Source: Heliocidaris erythrogramma (Eukaryota; Echinodermata; Echinoidea; Camarodonta; Echinometridae). Taken from it: 64,000 nt of DNA. Location of the stretch: positions 51,663,021 to 51,727,020 of the forward strand of contig CM046853.1 of the NCBI GenBank assembly GCA_025617745.1. Direction: 5' to 3'. Under the pieces are notes generated by a model. The model had not been told where the DNA came from. It saw nothing but the letters and a program-made list of their open reading frames with translations, and ran no database searches. The number at the start of each line of letters is the position of its first letter. The first letter of the stretch is position 1. The position numbers and the translations under genes were made by a program. Below are positions 4,685 to 49,494 of this stretch, piece after piece.

Positions 4685-4729
4685 GGGAAGCCGTCAATAT
4701 TTGCCTGTAGGTCGCAACTGCATTGCGAC
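4685..4729 (+). repeat. Left terminal inverted repeat of the giant element
   Basis: 45 bp matching the complement of 28536-28580 with one mismatch (C/G in the palindrome loop). The inner 19 bp form a hairpin: GTCGCAA, a 5-base loop, TTGCGAC. The same GTCGC/GCGAC word recurs just inside (for example 4768-4795), suggesting subterminal binding sites. Confidence 0.9.
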
Positions 4730-5560
4730 GCAGTCACTGACAATCAGACAAAAGGAGTGTCGCTTCCCGTCGCCCCTCGTCGGGAAGCGTTGTTGGAACG
4801 ATAGCGGATGCATTGCCTACCTCATTATCTTTTTGCGGTCCTCATTATTATCGATTTTCTGGACGCTCACCGACGGCGCATTTATCGATTTTCCGGACGC
4901 TGCGTTTCGCAGCGGCCCGCTAGCTTCTCACTTATCATGACACGTTGCACGCGAAGATCACATGGTGCCTCGACTTGCCTTTTTTTTGCGCACGTGGCCA
5001 AATTGGTTTGTGAATGAGTCGTTATTACAATTGTTTTGACGACATAATTATCACGATAATGATGATATAATGATTATGAGTTTATAATGACGATATGAAG
5101 ATGATCATGTCACGGATCGGCAATATTTTTTATCAAGACAGTAGAGTCTACATGTCGATATTATTCTTGACGTCTGACGTACTAGTAAGTTAGGATCATC
5201 GCTATAATACTGCTAAAAAATATACTTCGTTTGCGTTTCGTTGACGATCATGTCTGATCATGGCTATAAAAAAGAGAGACGAATAACTGCTATTATTAAA
5301 AAAAAAATACTTTAGTTTTGCGTTTCGCAGCGGCCCGCGTAGCTTCTCACTTGTCATGACATGTTGCACGCGAAGATCACATGGTGCCTCGACTTGCCTT
5401 TTTTTTTTTGCGCACGTGGCCAAATTGGTTTGTGAATGCGTCGTTTATTACAATTATTGTTTTGACATGATTATCATCACGATAATGATGATATAATGAT
5501 TATGAGTTAATGACGATATGAACATGATCATGTCATTCATGTGTGTTAAAGGATAAAGTT
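4730..5560. repeat. Left subterminal region with a duplicated ~210-bp block
   Basis: 4899-5110 and 5318-5530 are near-identical direct copies starting TGCGTTTCGCAGCGGCCCGC and running through AGATCACATGGTGCCTCGAC and GCGCACGTGGCCAAATTGG to a GATGAT-rich tail. A small hairpin GGGAAGCG/CGCTTCCC lies at about 4766-4796. No gene. Duplicated subterminal sequence is common in large TIR elements. Confidence 0.75.
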
Positions 5561-5980
5561 ACGGTCGGGCAAGGAAGAAAATTTGGCTTTGAATGATGAG
5601 TTTGATGATGATGATTGTCGATGTGATTATCAAGATAATGATGAAAAGATGATGAATATGAATAAGCGCATAAAGACATGCTCCGCAAAGTGTTATGCAC
5701 TAGCACAAGAATTGTAAAATATTAGTTTGATTATGATTATGATGCTATGATGATGTCATGATATAATTATGATGATCATGATGAATTGATTTGAATTATG
5801 ACTTAATGCCGGGACTTAATGACCATAATGATGATAATCATGTGCGTTAAAGGATGAAGTTACGGTCGGACAGGGAAGAAAATGTTGGCTTTGATATTTT
5901 TTGATGAATGATGAGTTTGATGAAGATGATATTGATGACGATAATTGTTTTGACGACATGATTATCAAGATGATCATGAC
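5541..5980. repeat. ATGATG-rich tract with second duplicated block
   Basis: Simple-sequence ATGATG DNA with two copies of a ~50-bp segment beginning GTTAAAGGATAAAGTTACGG (5545 region and 5847 region, the second with a few changes). No coding signature. Confidence 0.65.
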
Positions 5981-6151
5981 AGGCGCGAATCCAGGGGGTG
6001 GCGCAAGGGGCATGCACTCCCCACCCCCCCCCCCGTTTTGTCTGACAAATTATGCCCCCCGGACCCCCTAGATGGCCGTTTGGCTTTGTCAAACGGAGGG
6101 TTCCTCAGTGTGCGCGCCCCTCCCTTTCTGAAAATCCTGTATCCGCCCCTG
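5981..6151. mobile_element. Short MITE-like element (CAGG...CGCCCCTG ends)
   Basis: The ends CAGGCGCGAATCCAGG and CCTGTATCCGCCCCTG are imperfect inverted repeats. The interior segment from CTAGATGGCCGTTTGGC to the right end is shared with 53905-53987. CAGG(GG)CGGATCCAGG-type ends are typical of hAT-like miniature elements. No clear target-site duplication seen. Confidence 0.6.
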
Positions 6152-7562
6152 GAAGATATAATGATTATATGAGTTAATGACGTTATGATGATCATGTCAT
6201 TCATGTCATTGCTGTTTAACTTTTCGGGTTCCCGAATTGAAAAAGTACCCGAAACTTTATTTTCCCACAATCTCACTTTAGGAATCCCGCTCGTCTTAAT
6301 TTTCCGGTCTTGCTCATAATGTAGAGACACCAATCTTTCTTTTTTTCTTACCCCCACTCCTTTATTTAAATTCGGGTAAATACATGTATATTTGTGACAT
6401 TTATATTGGGAGCTGTATTTCTCACAAAGAGCTTCAAGGCCAGTTTCTTTTTTACTATCTGAATTAAAATGCTTACAAGAACATTTTGCTGTCTTCATCT
6501 TTTCGTTTGTTCTGTTCTTCCAGTCTTGCTCTAAAAATGACATTATTTCTTTTGTCACCCCCACCCTTTCCCGTATTCGCTTTGTTTCGATTTCTAATCC
6601 GTCTCCTTAATATCGGCCAGCCGAACGACGTTCGGTATTAACAGTAAGGATACAATGAATCATGCTCTCTAATGTTTGTCGATAATTACATTTCTGTTAT
6701 TCACAAGAAATATATCTTTTCTTGTGCCTTTTTTATCTGAAGGGGCTATGTGGGGACTTTACCATGGACCGTTTCCCTTTGTTTCGTCATTTGCTATTTA
6801 TTTCTTCATTTGTTTGTCCCAACATGGGGCCGCTTTAACCGGTCTCTCAACACCGATGTTACTCTTCATCAAGCATTCATCCCATTCTCCTTTTATCCTA
6901 AATGATCATTCCACATGTTTTTTTTTAATCTCTGAGAGATAAAAAAACAAGGTGAATGATCATTTAGAGACTCCCTTTCTTTCTCATATATCAACCATAT
7001 GTTCAATAGATCGAGTAAGAAGAAGAAGAAGACGAAAATGACAGAGAGACCGGAGGTATTGAAAATAGTATTAGAAAGGAGATACAAAAGAGGAAGGAAA
7101 AATTAGAAAAAGAACGAAAGAGAGAGAAGGAAGAGAGTGTCGACAATATACTTTTTTTTCCTAATGCTAATTCCCCTGTTTTTCTATATCCCTCTCCTAT
7201 GAACAGAATCCCCCTTTCATTTTTTCTTCGTCTTTCTCTTTTTACACTCATTCTCTCACTCTCCCTTTTCTAACTTAATCCTCATTTGTACACCTATCTT
7301 CCTCACCTCAGCCATATGTTCATTTTCTCAATAAGGAGAAGAAGAAGAAGAAAGACAGTTAAGAATAGAGAACACTATAAAATGAAAAATAAAAGGGGCA
7401 AAAACAAAAACAAAAATGAAAAAGCAAAGCAATAATTTGAAATAACTTGAAACAGTTTATTGTTAAAAACCAAAACTAATTTCCAAATTCAAATAAAAAA
7501 AAGAATTTCATGAAATGGAAGCACATTAATTACATAAATATTGCACGATGGGTATTGTTGTC
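6152..7562. other. No recognised gene; purine-rich DNA
   Basis: A minus-strand open frame covers 6564-5974, but its C-terminal third is the MITE and the rest (to about 6564) has no recognised motif. Around 6899-6966 there is an inverted AAATGATCATT pair. 7010-7140 and 7330-7350 are GA-rich simple sequence. At 7456-7461 TTTATT (AATAAA on the minus strand) is a plausible polyadenylation signal about 100 bp beyond the stop of the transposase gene. Confidence 0.45.
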
Positions 7563-9846
7563 CTAGTGGATCCGCAGCCGGTGCTCTTGCTTGTCCTTCT
7601 TACTGGCGAAAACGTACCTACATCCGGCTGCCGGGCATCTTCCTAGACCCTTCTCCCGGTAAAGGGGAAGGTGTTGGCAGGGCGCCTCTCTCGGGAGCAT
7701 TAGTGACTCCATGAAAGTTACATAGTGTCCATTATGAGTTTGCGAGGGAGTCGGAGACGGGAAATTACGAAGAATCTCCATGTCCTCCGTTGCCAACGAT
7801 GGTGGATTGGTAATGCAGTGGTTACAGGAGGGGTCGTCGCTGCACTTTGCGAAGATGATCGTGCCTATCCTTTTGTCCATGTGACGACACGTGAACTTGA
7901 CCTCGTCGCTGAGCTCGCTCTGCCGAAACTGCCGGGAGGAAGCGGCAAGGATGCCCTTATCGTTGTCGTAGGTGGAACCGTATGGCTGGGGTTCGGCGCC
8001 GCTTGGTTCCAACGTTGTGTTGACGCCGTCTCCAAAGTTGACGCCCTTCCAGTAACAGTCCCTGATGCGACGCATGGCTTCATCAAAGACGTCGTGCTCC
8101 TTTGCAACCTTGGCCTCGTGCGACAGCCCGCCCTGCAGCGCTGGTGGTCTGTCTTCTCCAGGTAAAGTCGACGGCAGGTACACCCCAGTCAGAGCCTTGG
8201 TGCATGGAGCCCACAGATGTTCAACTGGATTCAACGCCGAATCGCCTGGGCAGTAAGAGGTGACAATGAGCCCGTCCAACCCGCTGTCTCGGAAGAACCG
8301 CCCATAATATAGTAGGTTGATGCCGTGGTTGACGTTAAAATCGGGGCCCCCGTCGACTAGAAGAACCATAGCGCGTTTTCCCCCACGAACTGCAGCTGGG
8401 ATGTCGACATGATTGTTGAGGTCGTTCAAATGGGCCGCGATGTTCATGGAAGAGTGGGGGCTCCGGAGGACGATTGTAGATCTACTCTTGACGGGCATTC
8501 TGTGATAACGTTAAAAGACAAGAGAAAATACATTTGCAAGCGTCCCCATGATAATTATTGAACATTTTTATTGTTTATTGGTCATGGAATTACAACGATT
8601 CACACATTATAATGGGCATAGATATATCTGAAATCATCGTTCCAAACGATTCTTAATCCTCCCCCCCCCCCCCCCCCCGAAAAAAATACATGTATTTAAA
8701 TTGTTTTGACTTGGAGCTTATTTTAAATGGTAATCAAACATGCCGCCGATTTTTGTTTCAAATGCTATTATAAAAAGGTGAGAACCTTACCCAAATCTTT
8801 CTCTTCCAAGTTCGTCGATGGTCATCGCCTGCGAGGGGTCCATCTGAAGATATCCCGCCGGAGTCAGCAAATAGCCAGGGACCGGAAAATCGTGGTCGTT
8901 GTAGTTAGGGGCATCGTTGCTAGGAAAGAAACGCCCCACCTGCACTCTGCGATCGACGGCCAAGGTGGAGTCCCCCACGCGAACCTTGTTCTTGTTGTCC
9001 GCCGAGAAGACAAGAGCCCTCTCTCCTATCTTTGAAGCCATCTCGAGAGCATATTTCACCCTTGCTGAGTAGAAATGGCTGTTCTGGTTGAGTTTTCGGT
9101 TTGAATTATCCTTGGTTGGGACCTTGGCATCGACGATTCCTTTGTAGTACTTCGACGCTGTGTAGGTCTTGTTCGGGGGCTGCATCAACCTGGCCACTGT
9201 TCGATCACCTGCGAAAACAAATGGAAATATAATGATATTAGTCTTGCATTCATATCATATGCATTTTATGCCCAATAAAAGTTTCTTTAAAACAGAACAA
9301 AACGAAACTTGAGTATTTACTCTTTCTTCGAGATATAATTTTGAGGAAGGAAAACGAGAGAATAATGGTTGCGTAGCTTATATCAAGGTGTGTGTATATA
9401 TACATATCTTAAGATCTTATAACTGGCAAATGAATTTTAACGATTTACAGAGAGAATGACTCCTATATATCTATATATCAAGACATTTAATTTTTTTCAC
9501 TTGCAAATGTGAAGTTTTGTTAACATGGTAAAGGAGTCTTACCAAGATTGGGATGGGACTCGCTAAGGCCTGGAACGGTGTCCATTAAATGTTGGCGCAG
9601 TTCGGGAATGGTAGTGCCGCAGGTGCCAATCTCTTCCCTCCGTCGCTGATGGGCCCTGAAACCGTTGCTCTCAACGAAGGACTTTGCTTTCTCGACCATG
9701 AGGGGAAAATTCTTGCTTATTGATGGACGTCCCCTAGATGCTCGGGTAGTCGACTTAGGCTTCCTCGCCTTACGTTTTCTCGAGTTCTCGACCCAGCTAA
9801 GGTCAACGTGCGGCCTCTGAGCTGAGAGATCCCTTGGAGAGTCCAT
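7563..9846 (-). CDS. Candidate D-D-E transposase of the giant element, three exons
   Basis: Exons 9846-9543, 9208-8791 and 8499-7563 join through canonical sites (G|GTAAGA, GCAG|GTGAT, GG|GTAAG, CACAG|AATG) into 552 codons with no stop. Residues 1-101 are basic with an AT-hook-like RGRP and a helical segment. The core carries candidate catalytic residues: Asp near 172 (FSADNKNKVRVG), Asp near 290 (VLLVDGGPDFN) and Glu near 334 (NPVEHLW), with 43 residues between the last two. S/ALNPVEHLW resembles IS630/Tc1-type transposases. The C-terminus has a CX4CX12HX4H finger ending at the stop. This gene would cut and join the element's ends. A TATAATAA lies near 9989-9982. It is markedly GC-richer than its surroundings. 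The superfamily is not assigned; similar unnamed proteins probably occur in other marine invertebrates, from memory only. Confidence 0.75.
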
Positions 9847-10330: not shown

Positions 10331-11712
10331 GTAATACATACCATCATTTCAAAATTAAAGTTTACAAAAAAAATCTATACATATTAATAATAATAATAAT
10401 ATTAATAATATTAATAAATGTAACTTATATAGCGCCAATCGTCCCCCCCCCCCCTTTCAGCATCTCCGTATATAAAGAAATGAAATGCTTGCTGCATCAT
10501 CAATTTTTTAACCTTACCCCTTACACCTATTTTCCCTTTCTCCACCTTCCTCATTCTCTCTTTCTGTCTGCTACCCCCCCCCCCCCGACTCCTAGAGGAC
10601 TATTAAACAAAAACAATAAAGTGCAATATAATCTCGTGTCGGATACTGTGCGGGCAATAAGCCACTTCGGAGATGCAATCTGAGCATGAGCAGATAAAGG
10701 TCATCTGTACCAAATTCTAAAACCCACTGACACTAATATTCGATATGTGCTCATGAATGTCATGATATCCAGGTGGAAGTATTCTTTTTAAAGGGGGAAA
10801 CAAAAGCTATTCATGAGGCACCTCTATCACTCCCAGAGTTATTTTTCTGAAGTGCACATAAAGGGACCCTCCATGTCGAAAATATCTGTGGATATTTGGG
10901 GTCATTTGTACCATGCGCTAACCCCGAACTGGCTTATTTCCATGATCGCCTGTCCAGTTTATAAATCCTTCGTTCCACATTAATTAGCACATATAATTAG
11001 AGGCTACGCTAGTATGTAATATATGACGTGGTTGCTATGGTATTGGTCTCAGGTGCATGAATTATTTCCCTTTCTCATCGGTTCTGAAGTTTTGTCTTCA
11101 TACCTATAAATTACTCCGTTTCGCGAGGTCGATTTGCAACCAAACAGATATTTTTAGGGAAATATATACCAGGCAATAATTTCACCATTTTTTTTTTGTA
11201 GGACATTTTTCAATGAGGGGGAGAGAAAATTTATATTTAAAAATGAAAAGAAATGAAAAATGAAAAAGACATGGAATACGTATTTCAAAAGTAAATGTGT
11301 TGTGCAAACATACCATTGTTTATAAATGCACCGCTTCTTGACCTATTAAGGTTCAAATTTGCTTATTATACAATTCATGGTTAATTTTATTCATCTCCCA
11401 ATCACCCCGGCCAAGCATCGTTGAGGTATATCACACTTGACTATCAGCGAATATTGCCTAGTACTATTGTAATGAATAAGTAAAACTTTAACGCATTTTA
11501 TCAGTGCCTAGACAAGCTCATTATATAGGGAATAGACACTGAAGTAAAATCTCATGTCCAGAATCCAGGGTGTAACCGAAATTTTGATCAGCACTTTATA
11601 TTGTGTATGTTATAAATTAAGGTTGCGAACGAACTTTAACTTTGTAAGCTTGGGATACATGAAGATGTATACAAGAATTATGTAAAGGATTTACATACGG
11701 CGTGTATATTAA

Positions 11713-13332
11713 AGGAGAATTACGCTCAAAAATAAAGACGATAGTGTTCAAAGGTGTTATTTATTCCTACTTGTTAGACTATATGGCTTCGCGTCAAAAT
11801 ATACGAGATCAATACGAATTTTTCTGAGCAAAATTTACCATCTGCTAGCAATGTATCGTCTGCTAGCAGCACATGGGGGCTGCCATTTTGTTTATGTGTA
11901 CAAGAAGATTTTCTTAATCCAAATGCTCAATTGCCTTTTTCAAAATTAAAAATATAGAATAGATATGTCAATTTATTTTTAAACTGAAGATTTCCTTACA
12001 TATTTCTGTTGAAAATCGATATTCGCTTAATAGAAATCTATTTTCTCGATACTGGACGTATGGGACGGAGCAAATTAATTCAAATTTTATGGATGCTTCT
12101 TCCCTGAGCATCTATAGCGGTTACTGCGGCAGCCCGAACACGTAGTGTTCGGGCTGCGCTTCGCAGTCCTTTGATCGCATGGATGTCACATAATTACAAG
12201 GTCGTTTGTCAAAATGATAGCCATGAAACATGAAATCAGTTGATTTTAGGCTATTTTAGGTACTTACAATACTTTACGATTGACTGTCGTCTTTCTTTTC
12301 AATGAGGATGATACAAAAAAGGCATATTTATCTCCAAGAGCCTGTAGTAAAAACTTCCGAAGGTCGGTGTTTTGCTTGCAATGCGCATGCGTCAGCAGCT
12401 CCAATTATAATACAGACAAGAAGGGAGGATTATGAATATTCATTAAGACGAGCTTGAGCGAGAGCGCTAGATCTATACGCTAGCGATCGGCGGATTACAG
12501 TGGGTATATGAATATTCATTATGCCATTGACGAAAACATTGTAATAAACATTCATAGGCGCATGCGCAAGTGCCTATTTTCAATTTGGCTTTAACAACAT
12601 GGCGAATGGGACTGGTTTCGAAAATTGAGAGTAAAAAGTGACATTCATCGATTCTACACATTTTTTAGGAAAAGCTGATTTGCGTAAAGTCTGTTTAGGT
12701 AAGTGGCATCGTATATATGATACTTTAATTAAAAAATAATAATTACATGGCCATTTTTTAAATGGTCATTTGAACATTGGTAGATTGTGAGACCCACCGA
12801 ATCGTACTGGTTTCACTCAGGACGCTGCCACTTCGTGGCAGCGTCCCGGGGCTACTATAGCGGCAAACTATGCATTCACCTGCTTCCGGATAATGGACTT
12901 GAAAAGTCAGAATGCATGCTGCATATATTATGTCCTGCTTTGTTTGGCAAACCCAAGAAAATAGATTTTTGTTAAGCAAAACCAAACAATTTAAAAGTAT
13001 CATTATAAAGATTTAATTTTTATAATACATGTAAACACCCACTTTATATTTTCCGTCACATATGGGATTTTAGGTAATGAAGAAAATCAATTTAGGATTT
13101 GGATTCAAAATATCTTCCTGACTGGAACATTTCGCAATGGTTCATGTACAACTCCAAATCAGCAAGAAAATGGCAGCCCCCATGTAAATGAGTAGGAGAC
13201 GATACCGGGTGTTGGAATATCTTTATTTATACCCTTTTCTGATATCTTATTAGAAAATGATTTAGGCCAATAAGTAGGAATATATTACACCTTCCAATAT
13301 AAGTAAATTTGTAATCAGGGCTTAATTCTCCT
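11713..13332. mobile_element. TTAA-flanked MITE-like element H
   Basis: Flanked by TTAA at 11709-11712 and 13333-13336; ends AGGAGAATTA...TAATTCTCCT, with inverted similarity extending over about 80 bp and a second inverted pair near 11870 and 13160. The undisturbed TTAA site is seen in the tandem copy near 16016. TTAA targets and AGG-type ends fit Kolobok or piggyBac non-autonomous elements. It contains element B copy 1. No transposase. Confidence 0.8.
12121..12854. mobile_element. Element B copy 1, hairpin-ended with 9-bp target duplication
   Basis: Starts TTACTGCGGCAGCCCGAACA and ends CGTCCCGGGGCTA. The left end folds as GCAGCCCGAACAC/GTGTTCGGGCTGC and the right end as GACGCTGCCAC/GTGGCAGCGTC. 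Flanked by CTATAGCGG at 12112-12120 and 12855-12863. A second copy at 39560-40283 has its own 9-bp duplication. 9-bp sites recall Mutator-like elements, but the ends are not inverted copies of each other. It contains two ATGAATATTCATTA palindromes. No long frame. Confidence 0.85.
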
Positions 13333-14008
13333 TTAAGCACACTATAATTCTTACAACTGTTTATCATTTCATGTATTTATAAATACCGTCACGCATTTTT
13401 TTTTTCTAACGTAAACCTGCACTAATTCAAGCCTCTGCTTTAAAAAAAGGTTAGCGCTAAAACGCAGCGCTCTCTAGTCGAGATTCACCCTTGCCTTCAC
13501 ACCTTAGTCTATTCACATTTCAGTATTAGCAGGATGTGCATTGTCTCATGTCTGGAGCGGCCCAACAAAAGAGACTTCCATAGGGATGAACAGAAAGTAG
13601 CTTTATTGATTTCACACCAGAATCAATACTAAACGAGTTTTCAAACGTTTCGTCCCTTCGTGGGCGTTTAGAAATCGGAATCTTTATTGCTTAGAGCTGG
13701 GTGTGTATTGTCTAGGACTAGCAACCGGTTTACAATTTCCTCTATATCCCATGTATAGGCATAGACTTGCATTTATAAAAACGAAACAAAACAAGGAAAG
13801 CAACACCAAGCACGATGTGAATGCAAGTTGTGTTGTTTTTGGTCGGATGGAGATTAAGAAAGAGAGAGAGAGAGGGGGGGGGGGGGGTAGTTAAAGATAG
13901 CAATTACTTTTATTTCACAAGTCATGTAATAAATATTACATACCATTATTTCAAAATCAAAGTTTACAAAAAATATCTATACAAATTAATAGTAATAATA
14001 ATATTAAC

Positions 14009-15105
14009 AAAACAAAATACCTTGGTAAAATCAGTATACTGATGATTTCAATATAAGTTATAACAATCAACTCATTTAGAGACAGCCACAGGATTCTGTG
14101 AAGTATTTAGGACTAAATATAGCTAGTGATCTTTCTTGCTCAAGTTTGGTTGACAGTTTTGTCAAAAAAGCTAATGCTCGTCTAAAATTCTTGTATCGTT
14201 ATCAAAATTGCATGAACTTAAAATCAAGACGCATTTTAAGTTTTTCCTTAATACAATGTTTATTTGATTATGTTAATGCGGCATGGTACTGCAGCCTAGG
14301 CAAGGTGGATCAAAACAAGTTAAAACTAATTCAAAATAAGATTGTAAGATTTATCAATCACTTACCGCCAAGAACACACATTGGGAAGAGTGAACTTGAA
14401 ACAGCTGGTCTTCTTCATGTAAACTTTAGATCACAACAACTTTTAATTCACCATGTACATACGATTTTTTACTCTAATGCAGATCACTATATTTCAAATA
14501 ATTTTATTCGCTCTTCAAGTGTTCATGGGCATGACACTAGAAATAGTCAATTTACTTTCGTAGTGCCTAAGCGGAAAGGTAAAATTGGAAATTCCTTTTA
14601 TTTTAACGGTATTCTTTTCTGGAATTCCCTCCAAAATCATGTTAAGAATTTTTTACATTTTAAAAGGGTATTGAAGCATCATCTGAAAAATGTGTCTACT
14701 CCATAACTATATTTCTCCTCTCCTTTTTGTAGCTCAGATGTATTTTTTTCCTATATTATATGACTTATGTAACCAACGTTTATTATCGATAGTTTCATTA
14801 TGATTTTCTGTATATAGTTTTTTTCCGTAGAGTAAGTCTTGTTTTCACATTTATGTAATCTTCGCCTACTTTATAAAAATGTTATGTTTTATTTTGCTAC
14901 TTTAGTACATTCCTATTACTTGTCGTACGTGTACGATAGTCTTGTAGCCGTACTAATGTGTTTTCTTAGTGTATTTTTTAATCAGTTATTTAGGTAAGGA
15001 CCCCATTGGAAATAAGCCATTTCGGCTTTCATGGGCTATCCTGTCATGGTACCTGGTTATGTTTGTATTGCAATATACCTGACGAATAAAATAAAATAAA
15101 ATAAA
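14009..15105 (+). mobile_element. LINE fragment, RT C-terminal part
   Basis: The 202-codon frame at 14098-14706 starts KYLGLNIASDLSCSSLVDSFVKKA and contains LIQNKIVRFI and GHDTRNSQFTFVVP, the thumb/C-terminal region typical of jockey/CR1-type non-LTR reverse transcriptases (KFLG... and H.TR motifs). The catalytic palm is missing (5' truncation). The 3' end is an (AAAAT)n tail at about 15085-15105. It splits the tandem duplication, so it is younger than that event. Confidence 0.8.
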
Positions 15106-16859
15106 ATCATAAATGTAACTTTTATAGCGCCAATCCTCCCCCCCCCCCCCCCTTCAGCATCTCCGTATATGAAGAAATGAAATGCTTGTTGCATCATCAA
15201 TTTTTTTAACCTTACCCCTTCCACCTGTTTTCCCATTCTCCACCTTCCCCATGATCTATTTCTGTCTGCTACCCCCCCCCCCACTCCCGACTCCTAGAGG
15301 AGATATTTATGCCACGGAAAGGATGCTTATGCATGTGCATAAGGCTGTTTTTACTTATCAGCATTTTGACAAATGGAATATAATGATCATCGTTTTGTGG
15401 TACATGCTTGTATATTAACAAAAACAATAAAGTACAATATAATCTCGTATCGGATACTGTGCGGGCAATTTCCATGATCGCCTGTCCAGTTTATAAATCA
15501 TTCGTTCCACATTAATTAGCACATATAATTAGAGGCTACTCTAGTATTGGTTGCTATGGTATTGGTCTCAGGTGCAATAATTATTTCCCTTTCTCATCGG
15601 TTCTGAAGTTTTGTCTTCATACCTATAAATTACTCCGTTTCGCGAGGTCGATTTGCAACCAAAGCTTGCTTATTATACAATTCATGATTAATTTTATTCA
15701 TCTCCCAATCACCCCGGCCAAGCACCGTTGAGGTATATCACACTTGACTATCAGCGAATATTGCCTAGTACTGTTGTAATGAATAAGTAAAACTTTATCG
15801 CATTTTATCAGTGCCTAGACAAGCTCTTTATGTAGGGAATAGACATTTAAGTAAAATCTCATCTCCAGATTCCAGGGTGTAACCGAAATTTTGATCAGCA
15901 CTTTATCTTGTGTATGTTATAAATTAAGGTTGCGACCGAACTTTAACTTTGTAAGGTTGGTGTACATGAAGATGTATACAAGAATTATGTAAAGGATTTA
16001 CAAACGGCGTGTATATTAAACACACTAATTCTTACAACTGTTTATCATTTCTTGTATTTATAAATACCATCACGCATTTTTTCTTCTAACGTAAACCTGC
16101 ACTAATTCAAGCTTCTGCTTTAAAAAAGGGTTAGTGTTAAAATCAATGCTCTCTAGTCGAGATTCACCCTTGCCTTCACACATTAGTCTATACCCATTTC
16201 AGTATTAGCAGGATGTGCATTGTCTCGTGTCTGGAGCGGCCCAACAAAAGAGACTTCCATAGGGATGAACAGAAAGGAGCTTTATTGATTTCAAACCAGA
16301 ATCAATACTAAACGAGTTTTCAAACGTTTCGTCCCTTCGTGGGCGTTTAGAAATCGGAATCTTTATTGCTTAGAGCTGGGTGTGTATTGTCTAGGACTAG
16401 CAACCGGTTTACAATTTCCTCTATATCCCATGTATAGGCATAGACTTGCATTTATAAAAACGAAACAAAACAAGGAAAGCAACACCAAGCACGATGTGAA
16501 TGCAAGTTGTGTTGTTTTGGTCGGATGGAGATTAAGAAAGCGAGAGAGCGAGAGGGGGAGGGGGGGGGGGGTAGTTAAAGATAACAATTATTTTTATTTC
16601 ACAAGTCATGTAATAAATTTACATAAATAAAGCCCTTGTAACTCAATAGAGGGATTAAATTCAATCGAAATCATCACTATTATTGCTTTTCAAACACCGA
16701 AACTAGAGATAGATTCATTTACATTTACATAGTGAAGCTCTGGAATACCCTATACATGTACCTACACTCCCAAATTCTCACATGTTACTGATGAAAACTG
16801 TCTTGACCAAGTTGACGATATAAAACAGGAATATTTTAAAGTGCTATTCAATAATACTC

Positions 16860-17669: not shown

Positions 17670-18055
17670 AGTACCGAAGTGTGACGTCATCAAATTTTGA
17701 TTTTTGGTATTTCAGTATTGTTATGACCATATTTAGGTAGAGCATGATGGAAAACGTTCACACATCAAATTTGACATGAATCAGTTCATGGTGGCCCAAG
17801 GTATGGCTATATGAATATCTAATTAGCCTAATTAATTAGTGTTAAATTGGCCTGGTTCTAAACTGTTAAGAACCAGGCCAATTTACACTGACTTCAATGG
17901 GGCTAATTCATGCGGCCATATATCTCGAGGCCCAATGAGCCAATTGCCATAAAATTTGGGATCTGGATGTTTTTCACCATGTTCCTTTGAGATATGGTAT
18001 AAAAAATGTCAAAATGAAAAATAATAGCTTTTTGTGACGTCATCATTTCGGTACT
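17670..18055. mobile_element. 386-bp MITE with AGTACCGAAG ends
   Basis: The ends AGTACCGAAGTGTGACGTCATC and GTGACGTCATCATTTCGGTACT are inverted. A perfect internal hairpin, TAAATTGGCCTGGTTCTAAA with its complement, lies at 17844-17886. No coding sequence; no clear target duplication beyond TA-rich flanks. Confidence 0.75.
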
Positions 18056-18077
18056 CTATCTATACATGTATATGTCA

Positions 18078-20370
18078 TATGTGACCCGGCACCACAAAAC
18101 CACCAAAAAGTCGCAATCCGTGATTTTATGTAAACAACTGAAATTGAAATTTGGTTTTTGGAAAATTTTATTTTCGGACTTGTGGTTTTTCTGAAAGATC
18201 GTTCTTTTCTTTTAGCGTCTTTAAGTTTCAGAGAAATATTGGAGATGGATTTTGATGAAAATCAAGCTGTTGTGCCTGATGGGCGGAAACTCACTCAAAT
18301 AAAGTACACAATTGAAACGGGAAAATATACGTTGGATATTGCGTTCTTTACTTCACGTTTCTTAGCGGTCGTCATGTGGGCCATTCTCCGAAAAAGGGCG
18401 CCAAAAGGATATTTTTGTGTCGCCAACATTATCCAGGCTATAAACCACTGGTTTGTTCATCAGGAAACCTATTTTTTAATTTTATTGATACTTAAGAATA
18501 TAAAGAGTAAAATTAGTATCAACCGAGATCACAATACGCCATAAAAATATTATATAAGCGAGAACCATATATATGTTTATTTTACCCATGTCGCCAGCGA
18601 ACTATGTGATTATGTTTCAGGCCTCTGCTCTTTACTGTTATATCAAAATCAAGTATTTTGTTTACCATTTTATAGTTCCTTCGGTGCTTAAAGAAGAAAG
18701 CATATTACTTACCAAAAAAAGATTTGTATATTTTTTGTTGCGATCTTAGCGACGGTGTCTCCAAATCGCGATAAGATACGTTACTTTTTGTATTGACGGC
18801 CTAAAAAAATGAAGACAATGACGTAGTGATCTGGACTTAGGTGTGGCGAATGAAGTCCATCTCAATATTATATAAATACAATAAGTGTGTATTGAATCTC
18901 TATAATAATATATATATTCAGATACACAGTTTTTGAAGGTGTATGTTACGATAAGCAGAAATAAGATACGTTACTGAAACTCTGCTCCATTACAGAAAAA
19001 AGTGCATTATTGACAAAGTTATAATATATTTTGCTTTAAAATAGCATACACTACCTTTCGTCACACATGGGAATTAAGATGGTAAAGGTTTTTTTTTCCG
19101 TCAAAACACAAGGTGGAAACTAAAGGCCATCAAATACGTTTCCGTCAAATAATTACCCTTGGCTCTCTCTGAATGTAAAAATAGACGTGAAAATCTAAAA
19201 TACGTCAATAGTGTAAGATTTAATGTACCAAAATACTTGTTTGGATGATTAATCACATAAATTGTTTAAAGAAAGGAGTTTTAGTTAGATTAAATAAGAT
19301 TTGTGTCAGATACGTTACCACCATTAAAGTATTGTTCCTTAGCTTTTTAAAAATAAAATTCATTTGTAGTATTTTCCTCATCCTCACTTCATCTTTTCTT
19401 TAATTTCTCACTTTCACTTATTGTACAAAGTCATTTTGAGAGGACATTGCCCTTTATACCAGCAGTCACAACCACCCCTATGTTATCACATTTATCTATC
19501 AACAAGTGGTCAGCTGCATGGCCATGCCCATCGCACATTAATGACTCACCTTCAATTCAAGGATTTTCAACAACACTCCCTTTCTTCTTCATCCTGCTAC
19601 ACTAGCAAGGGATAAGAACAAACAACTTTTCATCTCCACCTTTGCTAGATACACTTCTCAAAGTTTTCTCATCGAGTTAACACGATAATTTGAGGATGTC
19701 ATCTCTTCACTTCTGAATTTGTTTCCTGCACTTCAATTGGAGCAATTTCTACAATTCTCTACTTTACATTCTATACTCCATCATCTCACCTGGAGGAATT
19801 TCTATTTCATCATATTATTCTCTGCAATTCACTCAGAGAACAATCCAAAATCTCGCTTGTGCTAGCCAAGTAGTTTTGTGATCATTTCTGTGGTGATACC
19901 TGTGTAAATATATATTTGAATCGGATTGTGCAATATTTGGAAACTTTTGGCATTTTGGAGGATCCATGTCCGGTTAACCCCTGCACGCATAAAGTCGGTA
20001 AGCATGGTAAGTGGTGATTGCTTCTTATTCCCATCTCGCCTTATAAGTAGCGACCAACCGCTACACATTAAAGGACATGTGAAAATACGTTAATACATAT
20101 ACAATGCTTTTGCTATCTATGCAACGTTATTATTTGAGATATTTTATTATTTTTGAAAACTTTTTAGGGGCAGAGCCAATTAAACTAGCCTTGTGAAATT
20201 ACGTTGTATTTATAAAAAAATAAATCGTCAGGAGGACTTATAAGTCTACTAAGCTAAAAGAGATCTCTGGATGGTTATTGTTTGTATGCATGGTTGTAGT
20301 GAGTTCAATTCTGGAAAAACATGGTACATGTAGAATAATGCACATGGATTGCCATGTGGACATAATACAT
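18078..20370. other. No recognised gene; start of a dispersed repeat and AGATACGTTAC motifs
   Basis: Begins with TGTGACCCGGCACCACAAAA, which looks like the end of a dispersed repeat, but no matching inverted end was found here. The frame at 18158-18544 has no recognisable domain. The word AGATACGTTAC occurs near 18774, 18962 and 19310 and again further right. 19380-19850 is pyrimidine-rich. Confidence 0.4.
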
Positions 20371-20379
20371 TTAACGTAT

Positions 20380-21233
20380 GTTACCTTGTATATTTTCTAT
20401 TTGCCTCGGAGGCAATCAATTTAATGATTTTGTTCTATCTGAATAATGTTACATATCTAATCAATGAGTTAATATAGTTTCGGAGACTACGGTGTGCATT
20501 AGATGTCAAGTTTCGTTCATCATACATTTCAAACAGAATTCAAGGCCGTACGCAGAAATTTTTTCCTGGGGGGGCAAGATGATCGCTTTCAAAGGAACCC
20601 ATAAGTTGAAGTCTAAAACCCAATTAAAAAAAAGTATGATTTTGACATTTCTGGGGGGAAACTGCCCCCCCCCCCCCCCGCTGCGTACGGCCTTGACAGA
20701 ATTATATATGTTTTTGCGTTAATTTAAGGCGATTACCCAAGGCTATAAATATGATTGTTATTGGTGGATATAACATTTGGGTGTAAAACAAAATACAAGA
20801 GTGATTTTATCATCATATTGATATATAACTCTTAGTAACAAAATTTTGTAGTAGATGTATGTCAAATACGTTACCATATCTACGTGACCGTATATCTTCT
20901 TTTCACTCGGTGGTAATCGATTTTGATGATTTGTTCTTATCTGAATAATGTTACATTATCTAATGAGTTACATGGACTACATTGTGCATTAGAAATCAAA
21001 AGTTTCGGTCATAAGTTTCAAACAGATATAATTATGTTGTTGTCTTAATTTTGTTCATATGACTTTGCACTTACTGAGCTAGTTTAAGGCGATTATCCAA
21101 GGTTATGAATGTTATTGGTGGATAATACATTTTGATGTAAGATAAAGTGCAAGTGTGAGTTTATCATCATGTTGATATATAACTCACAGTAACGAGGTTT
21201 TGTAGTATAGAGGTCTGTCAGATACGTTACCAT
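20380..21233. repeat. Tandem duplication, two units, ending in (A)GATACGTTACC
   Basis: Unit 1 (about 20380-20876) and unit 2 (about 20877-21233) share TATCTGAATAATGTTACAT, TTTAAGGCGATTA, GTTATTGGTGGATA and TTGATATATAACTC, and each ends with a copy of ATACGTTACC. Unit 1 contains an extra hAT-like MITE; unit 2 shows the uninterrupted site. Confidence 0.7.
20541..20695. mobile_element. 155-bp hAT-like MITE
   Basis: Perfect 15-bp inverted ends CAAGGCCGTACGCAG / CTGCGTACGGCCTTG, flanked by the 8-bp duplication ACAGAATT at 20533-20540 and 20696-20703. 8-bp duplications are typical of hAT transposons. Contains poly(G)/poly(C) runs; no coding. Confidence 0.9.
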
Positions 21234-21880
21234 ATTTTTCTTTCCTGTTAATCCAAAGTGTATGAAGTATTAAGTAAAAAGTACTTGCAATAAGCTTTCT
21301 ATAATAATTTCAAAACTTATGCATAGCAATTAATATCTTTCGCGCTAATATTGACCTACACACTTCAAACATCAGTCTTTTTTGTATCTGGACCAATCAA
21401 AGTTTAGTTACATTTTTATAACCAGGTGTGCATATATTAGTAACGTTTACTTTTAAATAGATATTTACATGAATGATCCATAAATGATACACCCTCAACG
21501 ATTTTCTTGACTGGTAACGTATCTGATCGGTGGTAAATATAATTTATGTCAAACAGGTGTTCGAGTTCGATACTATTTCTTGAAAAATATGGTGCTGTTA
21601 AAAACAACCCACTGACTGTTCTGTGTTATCAAAGTATTCAAGTTTCCGAGTTCAAATGAGTTTTATGAATTTTCTTGTGTTGAATATTTTCAATTTGTAC
21701 AACCCTTTTGGTGCCTTTTTGCGGAGAATGGACCATGGTGTATGATGTATGTAGGGTATGCCATACATGTACAAATATATTGTGCAAATAAACTAAATGC
21801 GCCTAATTATAGGAATATAACACAAGCAAAACAAACATACAAGAAACGATTCAACACGAGAACACAACATAAAGTTGAAT

Positions 21881-21911
<31 letters not shown>

Positions 21912-24178
21912 CCTGGTGAGAGGACAAGATTGAGAGAGCGGTAGGGGTGCATGGTTGGGGTGGGGACCAGCATGATGATGATGGGAGAGGAATATAGAGG
22001 CCTATAGTAACTGTGAGTGAGGCAGATCGTAGATAATTATGTTGAAGACAAGTTTTATCATTTTTATCGATCTCCACAGAAATGCTGCGAGGTTATAGAC
22101 AAACACGATAATAGTATGCAAAAAAAATCAAGACTACATAAACACACGCATCACGTATAAAGTGAACAAGTTAAATCACCCAAGTCATATGTATTGAGTG
22201 GAGGGAAAAGCCTTGACACGAGAATAATACTAATACGTGTACATCAATGGATTACTCAGTCTATTCCTTTCCCTCCCTGAAAGTTCATAACAGTAGCTGA
22301 AGGCAGCTTTCAATTGATAAGATTATGATAATAATTGACATAATTTAATTATGAAAACATAGTTACCACTGTCAGATACATATACTATAGGACTATATCC
22401 TGTAATAATAAAATTGTGAATGGGTTGAAACCTTTCTTCCATTAAAATTACACATCAAAATGTGAGGGTTACAAACATTCCCATACGATCCATGTATTCT
22501 TATTTTTTTCTTATCACACTGGGGAAGAACTATTATGAGAATTCCACCAATTTTATTAGTGCTGGGTCAGATTTTCTGGTTTATTACGTTGACAACAACC
22601 ATTGAGGGTGGAACATGCCGAAGAACAAATAACAGCACACAGCAACACCCTGGCCTGGGCAGCAAGACAATACGCGTTTCTCACCAGCCACCGGTGGACC
22701 AGTGTATACTTGCGTATTACAAAGCGACTCATTCACAGGGGACTAATTCCGCTAATAAAGCAGCACCTCGCCCCTCTCGCCCCTTGCATAACATAACAAA
22801 ACATAACGTGGATTACTGAGAGCGAACAATACGTTTGATGGGCAGACAATAATGCCGTCAAAATCAAATCAACACCAACAAAATATTGTGTCAGTGTTTA
22901 GTCCCAGCACTGTGGGAAATGCATGCTGTTGTTTTTTGTTTTGCTCTTTTAGCCTGCCCACCCCTATTTCACAACATGGGGGGGGGGGGGGGTAGTCCAG
23001 ATGATTTCTGGACATTTTGCAGTGGAAAGCTAAAATATGAACATAATCGTTTTAAGATTTATTTCTCTCTTCGAATCTTGTTGTTTTTAAACAGCAATTA
23101 GGTATATGTTATAATACAACAAATTGAATTTCCCATCCAAAGACATCAGTCCTGTGACGTAGTCGCTACACTTCAACTAAGTTGACATATTATTGTCTTG
23201 TATGCGTTAGTAAATTCATCACCAGATCCGACACACAATGAACACATGAAGTCCCTTTCCCCCATAGTGAATGTATGAATAGGACCTATTCACAATTTAA
23301 TTTCCAGGTGCTCCAGCAAGCAGACTGGAAAAAAAAACTTTTTACAAATTATTTGGGGAGAAAGGCAAATTATAGGATTGTTTGATCTACCCGCGCGCGC
23401 GCGCATACTTTTTATAAATAACCGCATTGATATCAACAAGCTGCCAGACACTGGCTCCCAAGAGTCTCTCAATGTCATTGCCCCAGTTTATGAACTGCTG
23501 TGATTTTGTTTTCATGCTAACCTATATATGCGATATGGGTTGGTCTTTCTAGCAAGTACACTACATGTATACGTATTTAGTCGCATTATGAAGACGGTAC
23601 GGACTATGGGTGAGGGCATTAGCCCGAGCGAGTATCATCGCTGGTGAACTCATATGAGAGGAGTGTATTTCATGCATGATTCATAAGACTAGCCTTATTA
23701 TTCAACCAATCAAATATCATCTCCAAGTTTCGATTTTTCCGTCTATTAAATATTCATAATACGCCACAACGCCCTATTTTGTTGGAGTAGCTTAATATAG
23801 TCTCTATGCAAGTCTGTAATAATTCACTCCCCTGTTGCGGTATCGAAGTATGTACCTATCCGGAATCACATCTTATGTTTAACTAATCATAATAACGAAT
23901 TATTCTAGACTACGGTAGATTCTTCCCAACTGGGTGTTGTTCACGAACAATGGTGTGCCCCTCCAATGCTTTGTCTTCGCGAAACTTTCGGACGCCTCTA
24001 TCGCGGGATCAGGGACGGTGTGTGAAAGGATGTGGGGGCGGGGTAATTAACCAATCGCCCTGCTCGCTTTATCAAAGTAATAACTAGCTTCAAACTAAAC
24101 TAGCCAATCAAGTGAACCAGCATTGCAGGGTGACAATTCTTTGAATATCCTCTTTCTCAGGGGTTGAGGATAAAAATT
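21234..24178. other. No recognised gene; simple repeats
   Basis: Contains one more ATACGTTAC-type word in inverted orientation near 21512, a (GA)n tract at 21886-21911, a poly(G) run at 22979-22992 and a (CG)n tract at 23393-23404. Two overlapping short frames at 22535-22819 have no recognised domain. The segment from 23950 to 24178 lies directly upstream of the BEN gene and probably holds its promoter. Confidence 0.4.
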
Positions 24179-24179
24179 G

Positions 24180-24187
24180 TATAAATA
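24180..24187 (+). promoter_or_regulatory. TATA box of the BEN-domain gene
   Basis: TATAAATA, 88 bp upstream of the ATG at 24275, a suitable distance for a short 5' leader. Supports an own promoter for this cargo gene. Confidence 0.55.
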
Positions 24188-24274
24188 CCGTAGCACAAAC
24201 TATGATATATCATTCGATGAATATATCACTACTGCTGTTATTATACTACTTCTACTATACTACTTCTACTGACT

Positions 24275-26136
24275 ATGGATCAAGTCACCATCAGATGGTT
24301 GAACGCAAAGTGGAGGGGGATGGAGGAGACAGTCGTCAGGAGCCGGGTGAGGAAAACTGGCGTTCTGCAGGAAGGAATGGTCGTCAACGTTACATACAAG
24401 CGATGTCAATACAAGGCCGAGATCGTCTCTCACGGCATGCCGATTAGACGCCGGACTTCAATTTACAGACGGTCGGCAGCTCAGATCCGCCACTTGCCCG
24501 CCAACAACCTGCCTGCCGATGACCCACCTGCCAATGACCTGCCCGCCGATGATACCCCCAACGACCTGCCCGCCGATGATGCCCCCAACGACCTGCCCGC
24601 CGATGATGCCCCTAACGACCTGCCCGCCAATGATGCCGATGACCAACCCGCCAACAACCTGTCTGCCGATGACCCACCTGCCAACGACCTGCCCGCCGAT
24701 GATGCCCCAAACGACCTGCCCGCCGATGATGCCGCCAACGACCTGCCCGCCGATGATGCCGATGACCAACCCGCCAACGATCTGCCCGCTGATGACCCAC
24801 CCGCCGACGATCTGCCCGCTGATGACCCACCCGCCGACGATCTGCCCGCTGATGACCCACCCGCCAACGATCTGCCCGCTGATGACCCACCCGCCAACGA
24901 TCTGCCCGCTGATGACCCACCCACCGACGATCTGCCCGCTGATGACCCACCCACCAACGATCTGCACGCTGATGACCCACCCGCCAACGATCTGCCCGCT
25001 GATGACCCACCCGCCAACGATCTGCCCGCTGATGACCCACCCGCCAACGATCTGCCCGCTGATGACCCACCCGCCAACGATCTGCCCGCTGATGACCCAC
25101 CCGCCAACGATCTGCACGCTGATGACCCACCCGCCGACGATCTGCCCGCTGATGACCCACCCACCGACGATCTGCCCGCTGATGACCCACCCGCCGACGA
25201 CCTGCCCGCCAATGACCCACCCGCCAACGACCTGGCCGACGGTGACCATCTCGTCCAGGCCATCCTGGACGATATGTCTGAGCTCTCATCCAACTCCGCT
25301 ACATCAGAAAATGGTAAGATATCCACCTTCTTAACAAATCATACTCATAATAAATAACTATAATAAAATGTTAAAAAGTTCATAATATTATTCACACATT
25401 TTGCCTTTTCATTTCAAGTACGTAAAACCATTTCTCTGTTAAATTGTGCTGCATAACCAAATAATCAAATACCCATTTATAATTGTACTCACAGAGTATA
25501 TATTTATCTAATTGTCCTGGATAACATCAAATAACCATTTATAATTTTTTTTATGTTCTTGTTGTCATTGTGGGGTATTTTCCTCTTGTTCTTTTCCTTT
25601 CAGCTAGCGATTTGACAATGTCTGCATCGTGGACACCGGACAGCGAGCTGGTCTGCACACTGCTGCGCCAGAACGCTGAGCTACGGAAGGAAAACGAGAA
25701 GCTGCGGACCGAACTTGCTGCAACCAAGGCCGTGCCAAGGAAGAACCTGACACCGAACACCGTCGCAGTAGACGCCGTAACTGTGGTCATCGGCAGCAAC
25801 GAGGCTATCTACACCATGGGGGCAGCAGACTACTACAGTATCTTCAGCCGTGCCACGTCGCCGAAAGATTTCGTGCTTCGTCTCGTCGGTAGCGTCTTCC
25901 CCGAAAACTTCCTGGCCAGTTGCAATTTCTACGGGGGCACCGTCTTCAACGGGAAGGCCAGGTCGCACAAACAGGGACTGTTCGACACGACTGCGTTCAA
26001 GGCCATCTTGGCTCAGACGGAGATTGAATTTCCAGGATGCAACCAGGGAGAAGACTACCAACGCGACGTGAGGTATGCCGTGAACGCCAAGTGTAGGAGG
26101 GCGGACATGAAGCTGCGGCGGGCCATGGAGTTGTAA
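24275..26136 (+). CDS. BEN-domain protein with acidic 10-residue repeat array, two exons
   Basis: Exon 1 24275-25313 (AATG|GTAAGA) joins exon 2 25604-26136 (TTTCAG|CTAGC) in frame, giving 523 codons. Residues 1-70 (QVTIRWLNAKW...VVNVTYKRCQYKAEIV) look like a small beta-rich Tudor/SH3-type fold. Residues about 74-322 are some 24 units of NDLPADDPPA. Residues 361-388 form a heptad coiled coil (LLRQNAELRKENEKLRTEL). From about 420 to the end is a BEN-like domain (VFPENFLASCNFYGG, ending VNAKCRRADMKLRRAM), a DNA/chromatin-binding fold. AATAAA lies at 26217-26222. The likely role is nuclear, perhaps end recognition or chromatin silencing, but this is inference. It is the only other intact gene in the giant element. 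The opposite strand is also open across the repeat; those frames are shadows. Confidence 0.8.
24494..25235 (+). repeat. 30-bp tandem array encoding NDLPADDPPA units
   Basis: A coding minisatellite of 30-bp units such as GATCTGCCCGCTGATGACCC plus ten more bases. The first third is more diverged (24-33 bp units, DAPNDLPADD forms), while 24775-25200 is nearly homogeneous, implying recent expansion by unequal exchange or slippage. All units keep the frame. Confidence 0.9.
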
Positions 26137-28270
26137 ATCAGTTTATTGTACATGTCAGATGCAGTAATCATTGCAACTTGCCTTTAATGTGCATTGTGAA
26201 TTGAATAGTGAATAGTAATAAAATTTGGTATTGAACATTAACTAAATTGTATCTGAGCATAATTTGTCTTCCTTGTTGAAAATATGTGTTCTGATAATGA
26301 ATGAAAAATGAAAGAAAAATAATTGTAAGTATTGTAATGGAGAGAGAGAGAGAAATCAAAGAGATATATGAATAGAATATGACAGGAAGGGATTGTGATA
26401 TAGATGAAGATGAAATACAATCGAGAGAGGAAAAAATCAGTAATATATGGTCAAAATAATGCAAAAACAAAATATGAAAAAGAATAGGACGTAAATGTAT
26501 AAAAGAGAAAGAAATCAAATCTTAATATATTTCAGGGATATGTCAGGGATATGTCTATCTATATATAGATTGACATATGTATATATTCTCTAATTAGATC
26601 TCTCCTTAACAAAAACGTATGGAAGAGAGCAATATGAAATAATATAAAGGCAGTTTGAAGAATAAGAGGAAGTAGTATAAAGGAGAGATATGAGGGGATG
26701 CAACAGGAACCAATTCTGATATAGATATTATGGAGAGAAAAAAAAAATCAAAGTTATACAAATCAGAATATTGCAAGAACGAAATATAAAAGAGAATAGG
26801 ATGACTGCATTACGGTTATAAATCATTTCATGTCCTTCTATATACGCTGCCGGCTGATCGACATGCTTTTAATATGCAAAATGCATTGTTAGTATTCCGA
26901 ATCAGATTTATATACGCACTATACAGCGGTATTTCAATCGTGCTCCAGTTTATTTTACGGAAATACTTTTTATTTTTCGTAGTTCTAGTATCACTTGGCT
27001 TCCTTTAAATCTAAAGGCAACCACTCTGGAGTCGTTTCGTTAAATCAATTGACCTAATGATGAGCAAAGAGGGTGATAGATGGATAACAAAGATGCGAGA
27101 AGGAAAGACGAATGTAAATCTCTTCATCAGTCATGGCCATAGTTACGACGGATATCTTATCAAAGAAAACTCGTCCACAAACGGAGCGATGTGATGAAAC
27201 CTTTTTATACGTAGTGACGATAATAGTTACGTCGGATTTATCTTTTTAAAGAATGCTGGGTCACAAAAAATGCGATGTGAGCATGTAAGTCTAATCATTA
27301 ATATGTCGTATGGTCTAGAAGTGCTCGTAAATCCATGTCAGTAAATCTTGATTCCTCTATTTTTTTTCTTGCATAATCTCCTGAACCATTCGCGGATGTA
27401 TCCAAAATCTTTAAACACCAATGACGCCTATACGTGTGTACCATATTCGCTATCACCGGGCTTGAAACTAGTTCGGGACTGGTTTTGCGACTCCAAATTT
27501 TGCTAGCTGCGGAGACGTCTCCTGAAAATTGCGGAGCCTCCGTGGAGTCACAAGAAATTTTAAACATGTTCAATTTTTGGGGAGGCTTTTTCCAGTCTCC
27601 GAGACATCTCCATCAGTTGCAGAAACGTATCCGTGACTGCTGAGACGTCTCAGCGACGTTTCCGAAAATGTCTGAGGAGACGTCGAAATTATTTGTGAAT
27701 TATACATTGATTTACGATCGTCGTGACTTTTGTATAATAAATGCCATTAGATGTCATCGATTGGACTCTTCATATTGTTGTTCTAAACATAGCTATTTTG
27801 GGGCATTTGTAGATTTTAATCATCAGTATCTCAAGAGAAGCAGTGAATACCGTACATAAACAAGTTCATCAAAGTACATTCTAGTGAGCCTTCCATGAAA
27901 TTAATTTGAACAATCATGGAGAAAATGAACCATAGTATAAAAATGCTGAATGTTCTCACAGAAAGAAATATCCCGTCCATTCGGCACGAATACAAAAAAA
28001 AACATTCATTATGTTTTTACCTAAAATATCACCTAAACATAGCTCATGAAAAATTACAAGTTTCATTTCAAACACATGCGTAAAAACAACACCCGTCTTC
28101 GCGAAATAAACAGCCGCGACTTCGTAACATGGATTCGTAACATAGATTCTCGCTCATGCGCTTTATATTTGTTTGCAATTAGCTGCTATACTCGCAAACG
28201 GCAAATGGGATCCTCGCGAAGTTGATCAATTACTCGGTATTTACGACACAGTCGGACGCTCCAATTAGAA
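26137..28270. other. No recognised gene; GAGA tracts and a GAGACGTCTC cluster
   Basis: 26290-26790 is purine-rich and holds two related segments (GGAGAGAGA... ATATGA, near 26340 and 26730). 27505-27685 contains several copies or variants of the palindrome GAGACGTCTC. No convincing frame on either strand. Confidence 0.4.
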
Positions 28271-28295
28271 TCGCTCGAGAATTAGAAACATCAAA

Positions 28296-28440
28296 AGAAA
28301 ACAACCGACGCTGAGCGACGGTCAACAAAAGAGCGACTCTTTTTGTGATGCATATTAGAGCGAGAATGAGAAAGAAAAACAACCGCCGCTGAGCGACGGT
28401 CAACAAAACAGCGACTCTTTTGTTATGCATTTTGCTCTGT
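28296..28440. repeat. Right subterminal direct repeats of the giant element
   Basis: Two copies of a ~79-bp unit containing CGCTGAGCGACGGTCAACAA and GCGACTCTTTT (about 28300-28378 and 28379-28440). Together with GAGCGTCGGGGAGCGTCGCC at about 28470 they give a high density of GCGAC/GTCGC words next to the TIR, mirroring the left end. Confidence 0.75.
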
Positions 28441-28535
28441 TCATATGCATTTCCGGGTACCGATTGGGTGTGAGCGTCGGGGAGCGTCGCCTTCCGTTTC
28501 TGAGCGTCTCGATTACAATCGGAATTAGGTGGGCC

Positions 28536-28580
28536 GTCGCAATGGAGTTGCGACCTACAGGCAAATATTGACGGCTTCCC
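28536..28580 (-). repeat. Right terminal inverted repeat of the giant element
   Basis: Complement of 4685-4729 with one mismatch. Followed by TAA at 28581-28583, which repeats the TAA before the left end, and then by gypsy pol in frame. Confidence 0.9.
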
Positions 28581-28583
28581 TAA

Positions 28584-48562: not shown

Positions 48563-48593
<31 letters not shown>

Positions 48594-49480: not shown

Positions 49481-49494
49481 TTTGTGCCCAAAAG

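Follow-up and report, generated by a model that had tools for sequence, protein, structure and literature searches.

What kind of mobile element carries both a transposase gene and a gene for a BEN-like protein within almost 24 kb, and do the two genes belong together? The question is raised by a stretch of 64,000 nucleotides from the sea urchin Heliocidaris erythrogramma (GCA_025617745.1, contig CM046853.1, positions 51,663,021 to 51,727,020 of the forward strand), here called the window, in which a unit of 23,896 bp (positions 4685-28580) is bounded by terminal inverted repeats (TIRs) with TAA on each side. Based on our data, it is probable that this unit belongs to the Zator (ISAzo13-type) superfamily of cut-and-paste DNA transposons, as a large member with two genes. 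It would be a giant two-gene variant of Zator, and it went in as a single insertion. Its ends, the target site duplication (TSD) and the predicted exons are placed as follows:

4682-4684, no strand: left TSD, TAA; the pol frame is regained on removing the unit and one TAA
4685-4730, plus strand: left TIR, 46 bp, from inverted-repeat detection
4731-6632, no strand: left subterminal region, found in pieces also in copies A and B on C10 at about 84-96% identity
7563-8499, minus strand: transposase exon 3 with the second catalytic Asp, D290, and the Glu, E334 (predicted splicing, alignment)
8791-9208, minus strand: transposase exon 2 with the first catalytic Asp, D172 (predicted splicing, alignment)
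9543-9846, minus strand: transposase exon 1 with the start codon (predicted splicing)
23937-28556, no strand: BEN-like gene to the right end, found in pieces also in copy C on C8 at about 81-99% identity (genome search)
24275-25313, plus strand: BEN-like exon 1, a short N-terminal domain followed by about 25 Pro/Asp-rich ten-residue units (predicted splicing)
25604-26136, plus strand: BEN-like exon 2, coiled coil and C-terminal BEN-like domain (predicted splicing, AlphaFold2 model)
28255-28508, no strand: right subterminal GWCGCTC motifs, seven of the eight in the unit; the eighth lies near 4862 on the left side (motif search)
28535-28580, minus strand: right TIR, 46 bp, from inverted-repeat detection
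28581-28583, no strand: right TSD, TAA, from flank joining

The strongest single result on this unit is the restored reading frame of its target. Joining the left and right flanks with a single TAA gives an empty site with a continuous open Ty3/gypsy pol frame across it, and therefore the window TIRs bound one insertion. The DNA between them came in as a single insertion, which may have received further internal insertions later. The target is an older Ty3/gypsy retrotransposon, whose pol-type gene at 4239-4684 and 28584-30024 is interrupted by the unit. The TIRs are complementary at 45 of 46 bp (97.8%), and their pairing reads as 47 nt when the A/T of the TSD is counted; of the 125 inverted-repeat pairs in the window, no other among the 25 longest bounds the unit. 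A preliminary description, made from the letters of the window, had proposed 45-bp TIRs with one mismatch, TAA on both sides and two intact spliced genes within one large TIR-bounded unit. Apart from the length of the TIRs, for which we measured 46 bp, this picture holds: the single mismatch and both TAA copies are in place, the flanks rejoin into one pol frame, and each gene consists of predicted GT-AG exons with a stop-free translation.

The transposase gene is predicted to have three exons and to encode 552 amino acids, with a C2H2-like motif at the C-terminus recognised by eye. In a search of 5.8 billion proteins, of which only the 8000 candidates with the most words shared with the query were scored, we found 33 relatives among the scored candidates. 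Most of the named ones come from echinoderms (Lytechinus pictus, L. variegatus, Diadema, Strongylocentrotus and Patiria) and match the query at 44-58%, some along most of its length and others along part of it; more distant ones come from a sponge and a fungus. PF07592 is the family that defined the Zator superfamily, and membership of the window transposase in it is indicated through intermediates only: P0026 (30% over 91% of the query) and P0027 (31% over 78%) pass the PF07592 cut-off of 26.9 bits with 39.7 and 39.5 bits, and P0025 (34% over 61%; 24.9 bits), P0032 (22.5 bits) and P0020 (32% over 93%; 22.2 bits) score below it. Alignment of 18 proteins showed no variation at D172 and D290 and an E at position 334 in at least 90% of them; the putative catalytic DDE triad D172-D290-E334 is conserved in the transposase. 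The TSD of 3 bp, TAA at the window and TTA at a copy at C3 described below, also fits Zator, which resembles ISAzo13, both producing 3-bp duplications according to PMC10045372. An assignment to PIF/Harbinger, first suggested by the TAA duplication, was dropped as the transposase matched relatives with PF07592. In a tree of 23 transposases, built without reference Zator sequences, the transposases of the window and of two further loci, C14 and C1b, form separate branches of one clade of 15 rows, which comprises the window and echinoderm proteins (support 100/99). The rows scoring for PF07592 fall outside this clade, and the nearest fork of the window transposase is weakly supported (89/85). Within the genome, the closest relative lies at C21:20028347-20031870 (76-92% by piece), and there non-coding DNA past the stop codon also matches the window.

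The BEN-like gene lies opposite to the transposase gene, on the plus strand; it is predicted to have two exons and to encode about 520 amino acids. Its exon 1 contains a coding minisatellite with units of about 30 bp at 24497-25250, of which copy C has fewer units; a match of this exon to plant extensin (55.7 bits, cut-off 105) was rejected as due to the Pro-rich repeats. For exon 2, an AlphaFold2 model from four aligned sequences (predicted local distance difference test, pLDDT, 84; predicted template modelling score, pTM, 0.69) places a long coiled-coil helix before five helices and two hairpins, and the C-terminal BEN-like domain is probably DNA-binding. A protein search with a single BEN-like sequence gave no match and sequence searches of the PDB gave no useful one; a profile of three BEN-like sequences found one sole protein (E 0.001), from L. 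variegatus.

To what extent the two genes belong together can be judged from the rest of the genome (1.06 Gb, 26 contigs). Merged with a 20-kb gap, the 54 matches of the transposase query form 20 loci and the 29 matches of the BEN query form 24 loci. A BEN match lies within 20 kb at five of the 20 transposase loci, window included, and 0.018 such cases are expected under uniform placement, a presumption to be read with the clustering of transposons in mind. The clearest of these loci is C14, a unit of 22.3 kb (outer TIR bases 32628520 and 32650774) whose TIRs are unlike those of the window in sequence and agree with each other over the first 21 bases and at 36 of the first 39. Here, too, the transposase is on the minus strand and the BEN-like gene on the plus strand, the same divergent order as in the window unit. 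In C14, the BEN-like open reading frame (ORF) contains a series of Pro-rich ten-residue repeats of its own, a BEN-like domain and, as judged by eye, a coiled coil; the BEN-like ORF of C1b has a layout similar to those of the window and C14. Between the window and C14 families, transposase exon 3 is about 51-52% alike (nonsynonymous divergence, dN, 0.46; synonymous divergence, dS, saturated) and the BEN domains 37-39%. The closest relatives of the C14 transposase (P0006, 77%) and of its BEN-like domain (P0034, 76%) are both from L. variegatus, the longest contig for each being 47,823,793 bp. Since the pair recurs at five of 20 loci and stands in a second TIR unit, and since both C14 genes have diverged alike from L. 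variegatus, it is unlikely that the BEN-like gene is carried by chance; by sequence comparison, it has the appearance of a long-standing partner of the transposase. The preliminary description had rightly placed a BEN gene inside the unit, and its word "cargo" is less likely to apply than "partner gene". It had also left the choice between a new lineage and a greatly expanded member of a known one; the second option stands, with the superfamily being a known one, Zator/ISAzo13.

C14 also gives access to a larger population of elements. Its end sequence, with up to 3 mismatches, occurs 108 times in the genome, 54 times per strand, and a reversed-pattern control gave no occurrence. Facing pairs with a spacing below 60 kb were built from 100 listed matches out of these 108, and among the matches listed we found 38 such pairs with a median of 15.2 kb, of which 34 measure at least 10 kb and 18 fall between 13.5 and 16 kb; four neighbouring ends within 60 kb stand back to back. 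Random placement of the ends in 200 runs gave a mean of 0.12 pairs and a maximum of 1. Among these 38 pairs from the matches listed, only C14's own holds a match to either gene, and none contains a PF03175 polymerase. The pair at C3 spans 14.4 kb with TTA on each side, and each of its ends matches that of C14 piecewise along some 1 kb, one at 82% and the other at 82-90%; piecewise reading of about 8.2 of the 14.4 kb gave neither a significant match to the transposase or the BEN-like protein nor an ORF of more than 133 amino acids. C14 may be the autonomous partner of gene-less giant elements.

These data fit a mechanism in which the minus-strand DDE transposase would recognise the 46-bp ends and, if its triad is catalytic as predicted, excise the unit. 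Joining of the excised unit to a TAA target would then produce the 3-bp duplication, here in the pol gene of the older Ty3/gypsy element. The gene on the opposite strand would supply a protein composed of an N-terminal domain, Pro/Asp-rich repeats, a coiled coil and the BEN-like domain; most likely this protein has an accessory role, comparable to that of such proteins in other transposon superfamilies, and binds repeated subterminal motifs and/or controls expression. Candidate binding motifs are GWCGCTC, whose eight occurrences in the window unit are all no more than about 330 bp away from an end, and CATGCCCGCCGC (one mismatch allowed), whose seven occurrences in the C14 unit are all no more than about 290 bp away from an end; both were chosen post hoc from inspected sequences and are a lead rather than a test. 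We lean slightly towards a joint function of the transposase and the BEN-like protein, and we infer both the sites bound by the latter and the movement of the element at its present size. In this respect, the unit offers a testable transposase-partner pair. A wider and still tentative proposal, which we hold at a little under even chances, is that sea urchins and their relatives host a giant (14-24 kb) Zator lineage in which the BEN-like protein is a standing partner of the transposase on family-specific subterminal repeats, and in which an autonomous unit of the C14 kind mobilises in trans dozens of gene-less copies, many of them near 14.5 kb. If true, few cut-and-paste elements of the Tc1/IS630-related group would be larger than the gene-less copies, and the two-gene giant would account for the dozens of end pairs that face each other at a spacing of about 15 kb and gave no match to either gene.

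The alternative that survives best agrees with a two-gene Zator transposon in everything except size: a smaller Zator element was filled by later insertions, and the 23.9 kb never moved as a whole. It has its basis in the DNA between the two genes, where the following features were located (dispersed repeats were searched with 39 of 11132 candidate places scored):

10655-13336, no strand: intergenic repeat DNA with piecewise matches elsewhere (genome search)
12121-12854, no strand: 734-bp insertion nested in the repeat at 10655-13336, with a 9-bp duplication; the copy B stretch has this repeat without the insertion
14033-15109, plus strand: dispersed repeat, present at 31 of the 39 scored places with 94-97% identity (genome search)
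18374-21737, no strand: dispersed repeat with inverted arms at 18377-18408 and 21704-21735, present at 8 more of the 39 scored places

Thus, pieces of 10655-21737 match dispersed repeats, some of them at 94-97%, as do shorter stretches between the genes, and one internal insertion has its own 9-bp target duplication. The 8 other places of the inverted-arm repeat are without 19365-20065 and 20541-20695. Because much of the intergenic DNA consists of dispersed repeats, 23.9 kb need not be the transposed size, and part of it is probably secondary. At C14, moreover, the matched stretches of the two genes are just 1.4 kb apart. On the other side, C14 itself measures 22.3 kb, and the spacing of the C14-type pairs, with its median of 15.2 kb and nearly half of the values at 13.5-16 kb among the matches listed, suggests that related elements move at giant size. 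We therefore give the filling of a smaller element a real but slightly less than even prospect. The insertion at 12121-12854 has a counterpart (87%) at 39560-40283; both are copies of a repeat about 0.73 kb long, and each has its own 9-bp TSD (CTATAGCGG and GGGGCTCCC). An ORF at 14080-14706 overlaps the repeat at 14033-15109 and resembles, by eye, the end of a reverse-transcriptase gene of the type without long terminal repeats (non-LTR), with no Pfam match. An ORF at 18134-18544, at the start of the inverted-arm repeat, has a sub-threshold match to a capsid family (17.9 bits, cut-off 25), probably by chance. Elsewhere in the window, long inverted repeats (91-200 nt, 95-100%) at 39102-43019 flank a minus-strand ORF of 361 amino acids (40551-41636), and blocks of 43-47 nt at 46372-51340 recur in direct and inverted orientation at spacings of about 0.8-5 kb. 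Scans against Rfam and for tRNA genes gave no match.

Several observations weigh against a Zator transposon with a transposase and a BEN-like partner. The transposase itself has no direct PF07592 match in the Pfam scan. The BEN-like protein reaches 19.4 bits with PF10523 (BEN), below the cut-off of 23.2, as do the C8 copy (19.3) and a 149-residue piece of C14 (15.1); the longer C14 ORF, the BEN-like ORF of C1b and P0034 gave no PF10523 match. No BEN match was found within 20 kb at 15 of the 20 transposase loci, no transposase match within 20 kb at 19 of the 24 BEN loci, and none in 40 kb around each of copies A, B and C. Among the paired loci, C9 has two fragments only, the two genes share a strand at C1b and C12, and no convincing TIR pair was seen in the stretches of C1b examined. 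C14 is possibly damaged, one piece of its transposase containing a TGA, and its flanks, TTA and TAA, are an imperfect repeat. Finally, comparison of the window with copy C gave a dN/dS of 0.88 for BEN exon 2 (dN 0.051, dS 0.058) and of 0.59 for the N-terminal part (dN 0.024, dS 0.040), so that the BEN-like gene bears little sign of constraint since these two copies split. The solitary BEN-like loci, the ratio for exon 2 and the differing gene order at C1b and C12 all favour a Zator element that captured a host BEN-like gene long ago and carries it as a passenger with no role in transposition. However, the pair recurs in two diverged TIR families, the same odd layout is present at C1b, and both C14 genes diverge alike from their L. 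variegatus relatives. As a passenger is not expected to be co-retained for long, we consider such a capture unlikely, perhaps one case in four, and prefer the two-gene transposon with a partner protein.

Much less room is left for a composite of unrelated smaller elements, in which the transposase and the BEN-like gene met by chance. Such an origin would be in line with the repeat mosaic in the middle of the unit and with the lack of both genes together in any other window-type copy. The partial copies speak against it. Copies of the window family are few in this genome. DNA of the left end matches two places on C10 at 93% (copies A and B, at 17271776 and 17535287, 263 kb apart), where the left end, up to 6632, is fused directly to 25538-25723, which covers the last part of the BEN intron and the first part of exon 2. 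Copies A and B have common flanks and seem to derive from a single deleted copy by duplication of a larger region around it, a probable segmental duplication. Copy C on C8 extends from the BEN gene to the right end, of which the final 24 bp are missing. Hence BEN DNA is joined to the left end in A and B and to the right end in C, which ties it to each end separately; C14 holds the same pair inside different TIRs, and the number of paired loci far exceeds that expected under uniform placement. The preliminary description had asked whether the two genes might belong to separate smaller elements, an idea that these copies and C14 leave unsupported. Of the further copies it had proposed to look for, this genome yielded the partial copies A, B and C, none of them with both genes, and the separate C14 unit with both genes. 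We regard a chance composite as very improbable.

Virtually no credit goes to a Polinton/Maverick or a Teratorn-like hybrid of herpesvirus and transposon: the window unit shares with these giant eukaryotic TIR elements its large size and its TIRs only, but, in agreement with the preliminary description, which had excluded Polintons, it is without a polymerase B match (PF03175 occurs at 54 places in the genome and at none in the window), its TSD has 3 bp instead of the 6 bp made by Polintons, and no viral gene was present in the ten ORFs scanned, with no separate search for herpesvirus genes.

Animal BEN-domain proteins combine a coiled coil with a BEN domain, and the second protein of the unit is like them in having its BEN-like domain C-terminal to a coiled coil, but unlike them in its sub-threshold PF10523 match and its Pro/Asp-rich repeat stretch. 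Two-protein transposons are a further point of comparison. Harbinger elements carry a second, Myb-like protein. In Kolobok, lineages combine the transposase with lineage-specific accessory proteins, KolX, nucleases or helicases (PMC9587614). The window unit resembles both in pairing a transposase with an accessory protein, whereas its superfamily, its TSD and its accessory domain are different. In the open-licence literature, we found nothing that links Zator with a BEN domain and no BEN-like transposon accessory protein; the only match was an unrelated report on lateral transfer in Lepidoptera. Zator is also treated in passages of PMC7386202, and in a curated set of bivalve elements with three Zator members, Sola1 and Academ are generally the longest superfamilies with means near 5.5 kb (PMC10294476). 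The unit is like Zator, the relative of bacterial ISAzo13 / TP36 with PF07592, in its transposase homology via P0020 and P0025-P0027, its DDE triad, its TIRs and its 3-bp TSD. Unlike Zator, the window and C14 units measure 22-24 kb and contain a second, BEN-like gene. Cut-and-paste transposons of Zator's group are regarded as small; how such elements can outgrow this usual size would be illustrated by a giant form with two genes in which a BEN-like protein is retained time and again.

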